The notes beneath the pieces are model-generated. The model ran no database searches. It was not told where the DNA came from and saw only the letters and a list, made by a program, of their open reading frames with translations. A program made the translations under genes and the position numbers. Positions 10,072-13,930 of a DNA stretch of 50,411 nt are shown in pieces. Position 1 is the first letter of the stretch. Each line of letters opens with the position of its first letter. Origin of the DNA: a virus. The stretch covers positions 1 to 50,411 of the IMG/VR virus record IMGVR_UViG_3300034082_000990, one strand, 5' to 3'.

Positions 10072-10800
10072 ATGGAACCATATGCATCTATAGTGAAGAA
10101 ACAACTTGCTCAAATATTAGAGAAAGAACCCAATGCTGTTTTAATTGAGAAGAACATTGTTGTATTAAAAAACTGGCTATCAGATGATCTTTGCGACAGA
10201 TTAGTAGCTCATGTAGAATCCTTTGGAGAAGATGCTTGGTGGGAAAAAAATAAACGAGAATGGTGGCATGGCAAATTCTTTTTTATAGAAGATCCAGATC
10301 TTGATGCAGAGCTAAAACATATGCGTATAAGGCTACAGGAGCTCTTTAGACAGGAGCTTTGGGTAGAAAGCATGAACTCTGTTCATAGAATGACTAAAGG
10401 GCAGTCTATGTTCATACATGCTGATAATTTGGCGGAATCCCTTGGATTAGATAATAAGTGCGTATTTGGTGTTACACACTATATAAGCAATTTTGACGGC
10501 GGTGAGATATCCTACCCAAATGTAAAATTTATTTACAAACCAGAAAAAGGCGATTTGTTGCTACATCCTGGATGGGAAGAATATGCCCATCATACAGAAG
10601 ATGTTATAGGTGATAGAGTAAGATATATTGTAGCTGGATTTGCATCACTTCCAGAGGCGGAAGAATTAAGAAAAAATGATCAGCTATATGAAGGCATAGA
10701 TGCAGTTAAAATGTCTAGTGCTGTAAATGGAATATTTGGGAAAGATGATTTGCCTGAAAATTTCTTCACAGTCCCACATGAGTATTTAGAAAAAAAATAA
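10072..10800 (+). CDS. 2OG-Fe(II) oxygenase (prolyl 4-hydroxylase-like)
   Basis: 242 aa. The double-stranded beta-helix core of the P4Hc superfamily is visible: H116-x-D118 as metal ligands, the FDGGEISYPN strand near 141-150, KPEKGDLLLHPG near 157-167, distal His173/174 and Arg182 or Arg184 as 2-oxoglutarate anchor. It should couple 2OG decarboxylation to hydroxylation of a protein or small substrate; substrate unknown. About 50 extra C-terminal residues lie beyond the core. Leaderless from the promoter at 10038; first of four oxygenase genes in this part of the genome. Confidence 0.85.
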   Translation: MEPYASIVKKQLAQILEKEPNAVLIEKNIVVLKNWLSDDLCDRLVAHVESFGEDAWWEKNKREWWHGKFFFIEDPDLDAELKHMRIRLQELFRQELWVESMNSVHRMTKGQSMFIHADNLAESLGLDNKCVFGVTHYISNFDGGEISYPNVKFIYKPEKGDLLLHPGWEEYAHHTEDVIGDRVRYIVAGFASLPEAEELRKNDQLYEGIDAVKMSSAVNGIFGKDDLPENFFTVPHEYLEKK

Positions 10801-11033: not shown

Positions 11034-11114
11034 ATGAAGTTAATAATTTCAATAGCCATAGTAACTGTAATAACCTTTATCCTTGGTATAGCATATCAGA
11101 TATTGGCTAGATAA
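11034..11114 (+). CDS. Tiny single-span membrane protein (26 aa)
   Basis: Translates to MKLIISIAIVTVITFILGIA then YQILAR: one transmembrane helix with a short basic end. AAAGGCGGG lies 9-17 bases upstream. Very short, so it might be spurious. Confidence 0.45.
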   Translation: MKLIISIAIVTVITFILGIAYQILAR

Positions 11115-11127
11115 TAAAACGGACAAT

Positions 11128-11700
11128 ATGGACATTGATTTAATCACACATCCTAGATCAGCAAAACATTGGTTTAGATGGTATATTCAAAATAACACTG
11201 ACCTAACCATAGATACTCTTCCATATATAAAAAAAGAGTCGGGAACAATGGAGATAGATAATTCATTTAATGCCAAATTCAACAGTTTAACCTCTCTTGG
11301 TAATACAATGGCTATAATTAGAAACCCAGAAGACTGCCTTTCTTCATTATTAACTATGGAATCTTTGGATAACTTAGAACTTAGGCTTAATCAGTATGTA
11401 TACTACTATGAGTTTATTCTAGACAATGTAGAGCATATTTTTAGATTTGAAGATGTTATTTCTGATCCCGCCATGATTGCAGAGTATTTCTGCAAAAGGA
11501 GCAATAAGACCTTTAACCCTGTAAAAACAGATTATGCTCAATATGAGCAGTGGTATCTGCAAACTCAGGATCCTAAAAAACTAATTACCTCAAAGACTAA
11601 TAGCCTATATGATCAATCTCGGTCTATTCTCGATAATGTAGATTTATCTAGGCATAATGACCTTTATGAGAAAGCATTGGCAAAATGTTTAATATTGTAG
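11128..11700 (+). CDS. Sulfotransferase-like protein
   Basis: 190 aa. The N-terminus THPRSAKHWFRWYI resembles the 5'-phosphosulfate-binding loop of PAPS sulfotransferases (T/S-x-P-R-S), and IIRNPEDCLSS around residues 63-73 resembles the 3'-phosphate-binding R-N-P-x-D-x2-x-S motif; FRFEDVISDP follows as in the family. It is shorter than typical sulfotransferases. Substrate unknown; neighbours are oxygenases, so a common modification pathway is possible. Could also be a non-catalytic relative, since the classical Lys of the loop is displaced. Confidence 0.55.
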   Translation: MDIDLITHPRSAKHWFRWYIQNNTDLTIDTLPYIKKESGTMEIDNSFNAKFNSLTSLGNTMAIIRNPEDCLSSLLTMESLDNLELRLNQYVYYYEFILDNVEHIFRFEDVISDPAMIAEYFCKRSNKTFNPVKTDYAQYEQWYLQTQDPKKLITSKTNSLYDQSRSILDNVDLSRHNDLYEKALAKCLIL

Positions 11701-11723
11701 TCTCTATTTTCGACTCACTTTTT
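11700..11723 (+). repeat. Direct repeat flanking the tRNA-Ile cassette, left copy
   Basis: GTCTCTATTTTCGACTCAC, nearly identical to 12042-12065 (one insertion, one substitution). It begins at the end of the preceding gene. Confidence 0.55.
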
Positions 11724-11731
11724 TCAAGTTC

Positions 11732-11747
11732 TGTTTCACGTGAAACA
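11732..11747. promoter_or_regulatory. parS centromere-like palindrome, perfect
   Basis: TGTTTCACGTGAAACA equals the canonical bacterial ParB site. It overlaps the -35 region of a promoter whose -10 (TATGAT, 11753-11758) starts 21 bases after the palindrome and precedes the tRNA. Confidence 0.75.
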
Positions 11748-11752
11748 TGTAC

Positions 11753-11758
11753 TATGAT
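11753..11758 (+). promoter_or_regulatory. -10 box of tRNA-Ile promoter
   Basis: TATGAT, 16 bases after CTGTTT (11731-11736), which overlaps the parS palindrome; the tRNA begins 25 bases downstream. Confidence 0.5.
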
Positions 11759-11782
11759 ATATAAGATAATAGGTTAATATGA

Positions 11783-11857
11783 GGGCCTATAGCTTAATCT
11801 GGTTAAAGCAATTGTCTTATATGCAATCGACTTTGGGTTCAAATCCCAATAGGCCTA
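11783..11857 (+). tRNA. tRNA-Ile (TAT)
   Basis: Cloverleaf: acceptor GGGCCTA/TAGGCCT (first pair G-U), D stem GCTT/AAGC, anticodon stem ATTGT/GCAAT with loop CTTATAT giving anticodon TAT, T arm TTGGG/CCCAA with loop TTCAAAT, discriminator A, no encoded CCA. It reads AUA, a codon frequent in the AT-rich genes here. Anticodon UAU is rare in bacteria, which usually use lysidine-modified CAU. Confidence 0.85.
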
Positions 11858-11860
11858 CTT

Positions 11861-11876
11861 TGTTTCACGTAGAACA
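11861..11876. promoter_or_regulatory. parS-like palindrome, degenerate
   Basis: TGTTTCACGTAGAACA, two mismatches to parS in the right half. Its start is again exactly 21 bases before a -10 box. Confidence 0.55.
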
Positions 11877-11881
11877 TGGAG

Positions 11882-11887
11882 TATAAT
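11882..11887 (+). promoter_or_regulatory. -10 box, leaderless gene
   Basis: TATAAT, 16 bases after TTGTTT (11860-11865); the ATG at 11894 is 7 bases further, so the mRNA is probably leaderless. Confidence 0.55.
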
Positions 11888-11893
11888 AGTAAT

Positions 11894-12049
11894 ATGTTAG
11901 CTTATGATGTTCCTCTTTCCGCCCTCATTTTTATTCTATGGGCAGGTGTACCTGTACAGGAATATATAAATGGGCCAACTGAGGAAGAAACTCTGGCATA
12001 TATAGAGATGTTGAACAAAATCATAGAAAATGAAAATGATGGTCTCTAA
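11894..12049 (+). CDS. Small hypothetical protein (51 aa)
   Basis: Translates to MLAYDVPLSALIFILWAGVP, then an acidic helical C-terminus ending ENENDGL. The N-terminal half is hydrophobic but probably not a full transmembrane span. Leaderless from the promoter overlapping the second parS-like box. Function unknown. Confidence 0.6.
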   Translation: MLAYDVPLSALIFILWAGVPVQEYINGPTEEETLAYIEMLNKIIENENDGL

Positions 12050-12065
12050 TTTTCGGCTCACTTTT
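12042..12065 (+). repeat. Direct repeat flanking the tRNA-Ile cassette, right copy
   Basis: GTCTCTAATTTTCGGCTCAC, matching 11700-11723; together they bracket both parS-like boxes, the tRNA and the 51-aa gene. Confidence 0.55.
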
Positions 12066-12090
12066 CGCCGCACTATTTTAGGAGTTTATT

Positions 12091-12828
12091 GTGGAGTATG
12101 AAGTAATAAAAAACAATATTGTTTATTTTAAGAATGCCGTACCAAATCATAAAGAAATTATTGAGTGTATAGAAAATGTCGAGAATAATATAATTACTAA
12201 ATGGGTGCCATGGGGAAATAAATATTCAACTTCATTTGAGCAAAAAGATAGTACAACAGAGCTGTATGGAAACGGAAAGAGTATCCATAGCCCTATTTTT
12301 GATAAAGCAGGAGAATCCAAAGATTATTACTGGGTCTACGACTCTTTGTATAAAGCCTTATCAGAATGCTCTTCGATATACAAAGATATAATGGATATAG
12401 ACGAGTCAGTTAATCCAAGATTAGAGACTCCTGGTTTTGTAGTTGGTAGATACGATTCAGAAAAAAGCAGAGGACTTCACTCAGACTGTAATTACGACGA
12501 CCTAGAACACTCTTATGTTTTTTACCTTAACGATGATTATGAGGGTGGAGAATTAAGCTTTCCAGAACTGGATGTAATTTTTAAACCAGAAGCAGGAAGT
12601 GTTGTAATGTTTAAATCAAATGAGGTAGACAACATACATCAAGCACACATTTCGTATGGTATTAAATATATCATTCCACATTTTTGGAGAATGGGACCAT
12701 CTCAAGGATTTATACCTTTTGGCACAACCTTAGATCAATATGTTAATGATGCGAAAAACAATATTACTCACAATTTTTATGATCTTATTAGAGTAGATAA
12801 AAAGGACGTTGCTAGTGAATACAAATAA
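12091..12828 (+). CDS. 2OG-Fe(II) oxygenase (P4H-like)
   Basis: 245 aa, GTG start with AGGAG 8 bases upstream. Core motifs: H130-x-D132 (LHSDCN), LNDDYEGGELSFPE at 146-159, KPEAGSVVMF near 165-174, distal H183 or H186 and K192 in place of the usual Arg for 2OG binding. Closest in look to the later copies at 34940 and 35746. Substrate unknown. First of three overlapping or abutting oxygenase genes. Confidence 0.85.
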   Translation: MEYEVIKNNIVYFKNAVPNHKEIIECIENVENNIITKWVPWGNKYSTSFEQKDSTTELYGNGKSIHSPIFDKAGESKDYYWVYDSLYKALSECSSIYKDIMDIDESVNPRLETPGFVVGRYDSEKSRGLHSDCNYDDLEHSYVFYLNDDYEGGELSFPELDVIFKPEAGSVVMFKSNEVDNIHQAHISYGIKYIIPHFWRMGPSQGFIPFGTTLDQYVNDAKNNITHNFYDLIRVDKKDVASEYK

Positions 12829-13351
12829 TACAAGATATAAGATATTTGATAACTATCTCGACTTATCTTCTTTTACCAAGCTGCAGTATTCTATTTTAGA
12901 TAATGGTGCTTTCCCGTGGAATTATAATGCTTACATAGTATCTCCAAACGATAAAAGAGCTTTAGATAGACACCAATTTACGCACGTTTTTTTTCGAAGT
13001 TCTCCTAAAGAAACTTTAAAATCTGACCACTACCCAGATTTATCAGATTTAATAAACAAGATAGCCCCATCAGATTTAATGAGAGTCAAGGCCAATCTTG
13101 GAATAAAAACTTCAGAACATTTAGAGGGTGGTTTTCATACAGATACAAATATTCAGCATAATACAGCAATTTTTTATTTAAACACAAATAATGGGTACAC
13201 GCAATTTGAAGACGGAACTATTATAGATAGTGTTGCTAATAGACTTGTTGTTTTTGACTCTACTATACTACATTCTGGATTTTCTCAAACAGACAAAAAT
13301 ACAAGATGCGTAATAAATCTTAACTACACAGGAGGTTTATCTTATGAATAA
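12815..13351 (+). CDS. 2OG-Fe(II) oxygenase family protein
   Basis: 178 aa from GTG at 12815 (GTGAATACAAAT), 8 bases after AGGA; a TTG at 12809 is less well placed. It overlaps the end of the upstream gene. H108-x-D110 (GGFHTDT), distal H153 and R164 form the expected triad plus 2OG anchor. It lacks the NDDYEGGE strand of its neighbours, so it belongs to a more distant subfamily acting on its own or on a different substrate. Confidence 0.75.
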   Translation: MNTNNTRYKIFDNYLDLSSFTKLQYSILDNGAFPWNYNAYIVSPNDKRALDRHQFTHVFFRSSPKETLKSDHYPDLSDLINKIAPSDLMRVKANLGIKTSEHLEGGFHTDTNIQHNTAIFYLNTNNGYTQFEDGTIIDSVANRLVVFDSTILHSGFSQTDKNTRCVINLNYTGGLSYE

Positions 13352-13907
13352 AGTATACTTAGACGAAAATATATTTTACATAGAAGATTTTGTCGATAAA
13401 AACTCTATATCTATACTAAAAGAAGAGATCAATAATTTGGATTCCCTAGATAAAGATCACGAGGGTCTATATCATGACGTATTTCTTTTGACAGATAGAT
13501 CACAAGAGTTATGGGATAACATTGTAAGAAATCTAGAAGGTTTGTTTGACAATGATGAAGAGTACCTGCATAATTTTCCACATGCTCCATTTTTGATAAA
13601 ATATGTAAACAAAGAAAGCAAGCCAACGGGATGGGCAATGTATCCTCATGCCGACAATATAGATTATAAAGATGATCTAGGTGAACATAATGCTAGTGTT
13701 TTAAAAGGAATTGTTATTTATGTTACCGATGATTACAGTGGTGGAGAAATTGTATATGTTAATAAAGATATTACATTTAAGCCGAAAGCTGGCTACTTAG
13801 TTTGCCACCCAGGTTCTACTGAATATACACATGGAGTAAATAGCTTTACTGGTGGAGATAGGATTATAATTACTGGATTTGTTCATAAAAGAAAGAAACC
13901 CAATTAG
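13344..13907 (+). CDS. 2OG-Fe(II) oxygenase (P4H-like)
   Basis: 187 aa; overlaps the previous gene by 8 bases. H102-x-D104 (YPHADN), TDDYSGGEIVYVN at 128-140, KPKAGYLVCHPG, H163 and R173 (GGDRIIITGF). The arrangement resembles the 10072 gene most. Last of this oxygenase group; its stop codon lies in the left arm of a terminator hairpin. Confidence 0.85.
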   Translation: MNKVYLDENIFYIEDFVDKNSISILKEEINNLDSLDKDHEGLYHDVFLLTDRSQELWDNIVRNLEGLFDNDEEYLHNFPHAPFLIKYVNKESKPTGWAMYPHADNIDYKDDLGEHNASVLKGIVIYVTDDYSGGEIVYVNKDITFKPKAGYLVCHPGSTEYTHGVNSFTGGDRIIITGFVHKRKKPN

Positions 13908-13930
13908 AGGCGGATCTAATTGGGTTTCTT
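13893..13930. terminator. Strong hairpin terminator
   Basis: 15-base stem AAGAAACCCAATTAG/CTAATTGGGTTTCTT with an 8-base loop; ends the rightward unit and overlaps the last stop codon. It can act in both directions between convergent genes. A small second hairpin AGCAC-TTAC-GTGCT follows at 13931-13944. Confidence 0.8.

Follow-up and report, generated by a model that had tools for sequence, protein, structure and literature searches.

An uncultured actinophage fragment, the 50,411 bp stretch of DNA analysed here (hereafter the window), carries a palindrome identical to the chromosomal parS consensus, together with a diverged second copy at the promoter of a leaderless gene. Comparison with related phages suggests that the palindrome is an optional addition to this promoter and that its reader is most plausibly the ParB protein of the host; we tentatively interpret it as an operator. 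The features of the locus are as follows.

11128 to 11700, plus strand: upstream open reading frame (ORF) of 190 aa, its start sulfotransferase-like by eye, with no match in PHROG or Pfam
11732 to 11747, no strand assigned: site 1, perfect parS consensus TGTTTCACGTGAAACA, whose core GTTTCACGTGAAAC (11733-11746) is common to relatives
11753 to 11758, plus strand: -10-like box TATGAT, 21 bp after the start of site 1, a possible tRNA promoter in this phage only
11783 to 11858, plus strand: tRNA-Ile with anticodon TAT (ARAGORN; Rfam RF00005, 68.9 bits)
11861 to 11876, no strand assigned: site 2, parS-like TGTTTCACGTAGAACA, in the place of the single palindrome of relatives, its core beginning 3 nt after the tRNA end
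11882 to 11887, plus strand: -10 box TATAAT of the leaderless promoter, kept in relatives with and without the palindrome
11894 to 12049, plus strand: leaderless gene for a conserved small protein of 51 aa (MLAYDVPLSAL...), two helices predicted at low confidence
12091 to 12828, plus strand: downstream 2OG-Fe(II) oxygenase-like gene

Site 1 matches the 16-bp parS consensus without mismatch, and site 2, 129 bp further on, departs from it at two positions; both were present in the window as an earlier note on this DNA had described them, and the distance from the start of each to a -10-like box (TATGAT and TATAAT, respectively) is exactly 21 bp, as that note had also observed. The two sites flank the tRNA-Ile(TAT) gene and are the sole matches at up to three mismatches in the window, for which 1.9e-5 exact matches are expected from base composition and 1.4e-5 under a first-order Markov model. 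Genome-wide counts of CACGTG were near the Markov expectation, and the idea that avoidance of this hexamer makes the site conspicuous was rejected. Both changes in site 2 fall within the core, and by its letters we regard this site as a diverged copy of a chromosome-type parS that may be unable to bind. The anticodon of the intervening tRNA is unusual, AUA being usually read in bacteria by a modified CAT anticodon, and it is conserved in about 50 relatives.

The window is a linear IMG/VR record of 50.4 kb with 38% G+C. The capsid maturation protease encoded by the window shares 45% identity with its counterpart in Streptomyces phage Coruscant (Stanwilliamsviridae), with which the window also has in common the gene order ribonucleotide reductase (RNR), long hypothetical protein, portal, protease and capsid gene; judged by these shared genes and their order, it is part of the genome of an uncultured actinophage, a distant relative of the Stanwilliamsviridae. 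Relatives were gathered by three DNA-pattern scans with different targets, namely the palindrome plus -10 box (26 loci), the start of the 51-aa gene (66 loci, 60 of them true homologues, hereafter AYDVP genes) and the 3' half of the tRNA (49 loci), all of which point to one phage group; several relatives, like the window, are fragments. Relatives of 106-117 kb encode WhiB, which was present in 6 of 10 records and is restricted to Actinobacteriota (PMC10202952); an actinobacterium is accordingly the most likely host. A search of bacterial genomes for capsid relatives that might reveal the host found none, and a search of bacterial genomes for parS plus TATAAT at the phage spacing returned scattered matches, mostly in Firmicutes. 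The phage is presumably virulent, an assumption that we base on the lifestyle of its Streptomyces relatives.

Across this group the usual order is a small membrane-type ORF, tRNA-Ile(TAT), an optional ORF of ~40 aa, GTTTCACGTGAAAC, ATGGAG, TATAAT, six bases and the ATG of the AYDVP gene. The palindrome does not accompany the promoter everywhere: it occurs at 0-2 mismatches in 31 of the 60 AYDVP genes and at 5-7 mismatches in 29, while behind the tRNA the parS core is found at 0-2 mismatches in 28 of 49 loci and at 5-7 in 21, counts that are not independent, many of the contigs being near copies. When collapsed to distinct 40-nt upstream haplotypes, 15 of 28 have the palindrome and 13 lack it. 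TATAAT is kept in 20 of the 21 tRNA loci without the palindrome, and in 12 palindrome-free tRNA loci a spacer of equal length is made up of other letters (TTGGTTTCTCATTTAATAAGGAGTATAAT and TTGGTTTCTCACTTAATAGAGAGTATAAT). Because 29 of 60 genes keep the -10 box and the leaderless start without the palindrome, the promoter does not need it, and the palindrome appears as a dispensable, optional add-on to a leaderless promoter. Relatives with a mutated palindrome but a conserved promoter, which the earlier note had named as evidence against its proposal, thus account for about half of the homologous genes; where the palindrome exists, the conservation of its core nevertheless speaks against a lack of function and in favour of an optional operator or handle. 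Matches with 3-4 mismatches behind the tRNA were found in none of the 49 contigs (random 200-nt stretches peak at 6), so that the palindrome, lacking intermediate degrees, is either there or missing as a whole. Large palindrome-bearing relatives have one copy each; in five others of 96-117 kb no match within one mismatch was found. A tree of the upstream oxygenase, with too few rows, gave at least two changes of palindrome state, no better than shuffled labels.

Conservation is concentrated in the 14-bp core, which corresponds to the parS consensus and differs from it in relatives by 0-2 mismatches. Over 24 distinct haplotypes, the mean pairwise difference was 0.044 per base in the core versus 0.39 in the 10 bp to its left and 0.33 in the 10 bp to its right, a contrast inflated because sites had been chosen for having two mismatches or fewer; no such bias affects the distribution of mismatches behind the tRNA (0-2 versus 5-7). 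Against the consensus, the relatives in this set were exact or off by one base. The variation within the core also resembles that of natural parS. The commonest phage variant, GTTTCACGTGGAAC, present in three haplotypes, is also the commonest single-mismatch chromosomal variant in Actinomycetota (by manual count, 11 of the 27 sites listed for 60 sampled actinobacterial genomes). A different variant seen in the phages, GTTTCATGTGAAAC, occurs in the parS cluster of a Coriobacteriia chromosome. Two variants fall outside this natural pattern, GTTTCACGTAGAAC at site 2 of the window and GTTTCACGTTAAAC in relative L276. The symmetrical variant GTTCCACGTGGAAC was not found at this promoter of the AYDVP gene.

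Among the 31 AYDVP genes with the palindrome, 25 have a core that occupies the spacer and stops 6 nt short of TATAAT, so that the palindrome overlaps or adjoins a conserved promoter, as an operator would. In the other six it ends 19 or 32 nt before TATAAT, that is, 13 or 26 bp further upstream, and its position is therefore not rigid. The distances of 6, 19 and 32 nt form 13-bp steps (L270, L269, L276, L296, L293 and L305), the inserted units resembling GTTGAACGTAATT or AGTTAACAAACAT.

The leaderless promoter itself is well supported, since TATAAT stands just before the ATG in 58 of the 60 AYDVP genes; in the window the ATG lies at 11894, 6 nt past TATAAT. The protein is predicted to fold with low confidence (pLDDT 69, pTM 0.33). 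The earlier note had placed the two palindromes over the -35 regions of this promoter and of a tRNA promoter, and these proposals fared differently. The palindrome overlaps part of a weak -35 hexamer and most of the spacer, but the hexamers at a 17-bp spacer, TCTGTT (11730-11735) and TTTGTT (11859-11864), are both poor, and neither promoter site in the window passed a scan for the sigma-70 consensus. The leaderless promoter at site 2 is borne out by the conservation of TATAAT. The tRNA promoter at site 1 found no such backing: a palindrome upstream of the tRNA occurs only in the window and the near-identical contig L063, and in other relatives the tRNA follows the small ORF with no palindrome before it.

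How the window came to have two sites can be read from rearrangements at the locus. Contig L240, which has the upstream gene of the window but no tRNA, carries one palindrome immediately ahead of the AYDVP gene; the simplest reading is that the tRNA and a second palindrome were brought in at the promoter, which would have left the tRNA under the promoter beside site 1. In L242 the palindrome precedes an inserted gene of 196 aa, and the AYDVP gene further on still has TGGAGTATAATAGTAATATG but no longer the palindrome; G036 shows this arrangement too, with an inserted gene of 207 aa. It follows that the palindrome goes with the tRNA side of the locus, whichever gene comes after it. The genes that follow it differ in L242, L259, L265 and G036, marking an insertion hotspot, and the cargo genes there and in the window (11100-13910) each bring their own leaderless promoter, consisting of GGAGTATAAT, six bases and ATG, which suggests that cassettes of promoter and gene are swapped at a short promoter repeat. 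The joints seem to fall at GGAGTATAAT and not at the palindrome. The 3' end of the tRNA is partly repeated before the palindrome, and the ~40-aa ORF behind the tRNA (L249:2212-2336 and similar loci) finishes on a duplicate of the tRNA 3' tail, ATATAGGCCTAC, and might have entered by recombination at that end of the tRNA. Several 2OG-Fe(II) oxygenase-like genes, three with Pfam or PHROG matches, surround the tRNA locus in the window (10072-10800 and 12091-13907), and the same stretch has a frame matching a PHROG named endonuclease V. A motif resembling TCTCTAATTTTCGGCTCACTTTTCGCCGCAC, not a T-run terminator by scan, recurs directly after several locus genes (window 12043-12082 and 11698-11728, L243:345-385, and L315).

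No candidate for a phage-encoded reader of the palindrome emerged. The ParB_N domain was absent from 23 phage records, under conditions in which control genomes matched, and the HTH_ParB domain from 10 phage records, six of them outside the 23. The earlier remark that no parB is visible therefore holds for the window and for the relatives searched, where a phage parB outside the window was sought and not found, and a phage-borne ParABS cassette is unsupported, parB being absent from everything searched. Comparison of five large palindrome-bearing genomes with four palindrome-free ones identified no gene that tracks the palindrome; the sole correlated ORF was a spurious reading of the tRNA cassette. 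The lack of a phage gene confined to the palindrome-bearing set is what a host-encoded reader would predict, and, together with the absence of ParB domains, it favours host ParB, which on these genomic grounds is the most plausible reader and probably binds the phage palindrome. The proposal that host ParB tethers the phage genome or acts as a repressor is thus supported in so far as the element is of parS type, the phage is an actinophage and no ParB was found in it; tethering and repression are inseparable by sequence, and repression would fit the position of the palindrome better.

We propose, with less than full conviction, that the orphan host-type parS may serve as an optional operator for host ParB at the leaderless promoter, and we infer a course of binding, repression and relief by copy number. 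A dimer of host ParB would bind the site over the -35 and spacer region and, with CTP, load and slide; bound ParB would block the adjacent promoter early in infection, until multiplication of the phage genome made the sites outnumber the available ParB and freed the promoter. RNA polymerase would be excluded at the 6-nt spacing, and could be excluded at the larger spacings by spreading. ParB of Pseudomonas aeruginosa represses promoters beside parS3 and parS4 (PMC5521831). Counting against the operator reading are the weak -35, the roughly half of relatives without the palindrome, its non-rigid position and the small influence of chromosomal ParB on genes near parS in several species (PMC7022226). 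An extension of this reading, in which the orphan parS is a copy-number-sensing switch and the titration of ParB also weakens chromosome segregation in the host, strikes us as improbable.

Of the alternatives, a handle is rather unlikely but carries some weight: host ParB and SMC would load on the phage parS and position or compact the genome, titrate ParB off the chromosome as phage copies build up, or let the phage ride the host partition machinery, the place at a promoter being incidental. Like the operator, a handle would require binding by host ParB. The usually single site per genome, its strictly kept core and its loose position relative to the -10 box agree with a handle, and the parS-like sites of SGI1, which recruit the ParB of a helper plasmid, offer a precedent (PMC10954446). 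Partition would, however, be of little use to a lytic phage, and the site always lies beside a promoter in this group, unlike viral parS in general: among 276 oriented parS sites of other viral contigs, a -10 box at the 5-nt offset was seen 0 times against 1.2 expected. No general viral habit of overlapping promoters was therefore seen, and the overlap is a property of this phage group. Palindromes are often used by phage regulators, and a position in the promoter spacer is typical of operators, so the site could serve another regulator, of phage or host, and equal parS by coincidence; we consider this unlikely, given that seven independent half-site bases and parS-like variation would hardly arise by chance and that no phage gene tracks the palindrome.

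That the palindrome is a passive relic, a functionless border hitch-hiking on cassette exchange beside the tRNA, would agree with the insertion hotspot and with the partial repeat of the tRNA 3' end, but it is quite improbable in view of a core diversity far below that of the flanks, the absence of half-decayed copies with 3-4 mismatches, and cassette joints that apparently fall at GGAGTATAAT. An RNA hairpin that terminates the tRNA transcript or helps to process it is suggested by the six of 49 contigs in which the core begins 3 nt past the tRNA; the predicted hairpin is weak (-4.7 kcal/mol, z -1.0) and, unlike an intrinsic terminator with its GC-rich stem and T-run, is not followed by a T-run, a small ORF parts the tRNA from the palindrome in 22 contigs, and the window has a copy upstream of the tRNA, all of which render this explanation extremely improbable.

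Viruses may often carry orphan parS sites. Many viral contigs contain exact parS (the L122-L238 sample and L097), mostly with no ParB_N gene: of 27 such contigs of at least 30 kb that were sampled, 22 showed no ParB_N match (E 0.01). L097 has three copies, with TAT(A/G)GCATGG lying 5 nt behind each. A search of the open-access literature returned no description of a virulent phage with an orphan parS of chromosomal type. Chromosome segregation is the role in which ParB is mainly considered; if our reading is true, phages in which no ParB is found would exploit it as a transcription regulator or handle via one consensus parS at a promoter.

Set against known systems, the phage resembles the Stanwilliamsviridae (Streptomyces phages Coruscant, Evy and Yaboi) in its capsid protease and in gene order from RNR to capsid, and differs from them in the palindrome, GTTTCACGTGAAAC being absent within one mismatch from the four genomes checked. 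Temperate actinobacteriophages with parABS cassettes also have parS in an actinophage (for example PMC7157519 and PMC10586128), but encode their own partition proteins for prophage maintenance, whereas here no ParB was found. SGI1 is likewise a mobile element with orphan parS-like sites read by the ParB of another replicon, the IncC plasmid (PMC10954446); unlike the phage, it is an integrative element whose sites are of the plasmid ParB/parS type and serve stability and incompatibility. The parS3 and parS4 sites of P. aeruginosa share the location at promoters where bound ParB represses (PMC5521831), although they belong to chromosomal genes of an organism that encodes ParB. The closest likeness in letters is to the chromosomal parS of Actinomycetota (ParABS), with an identical 14-16 bp consensus and the same commonest variant among the sites listed; in the phage, the sites are single or double and lie at a promoter, on a replicon where no parB was found. 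The palindrome is thus a known site in a new carrier and setting.
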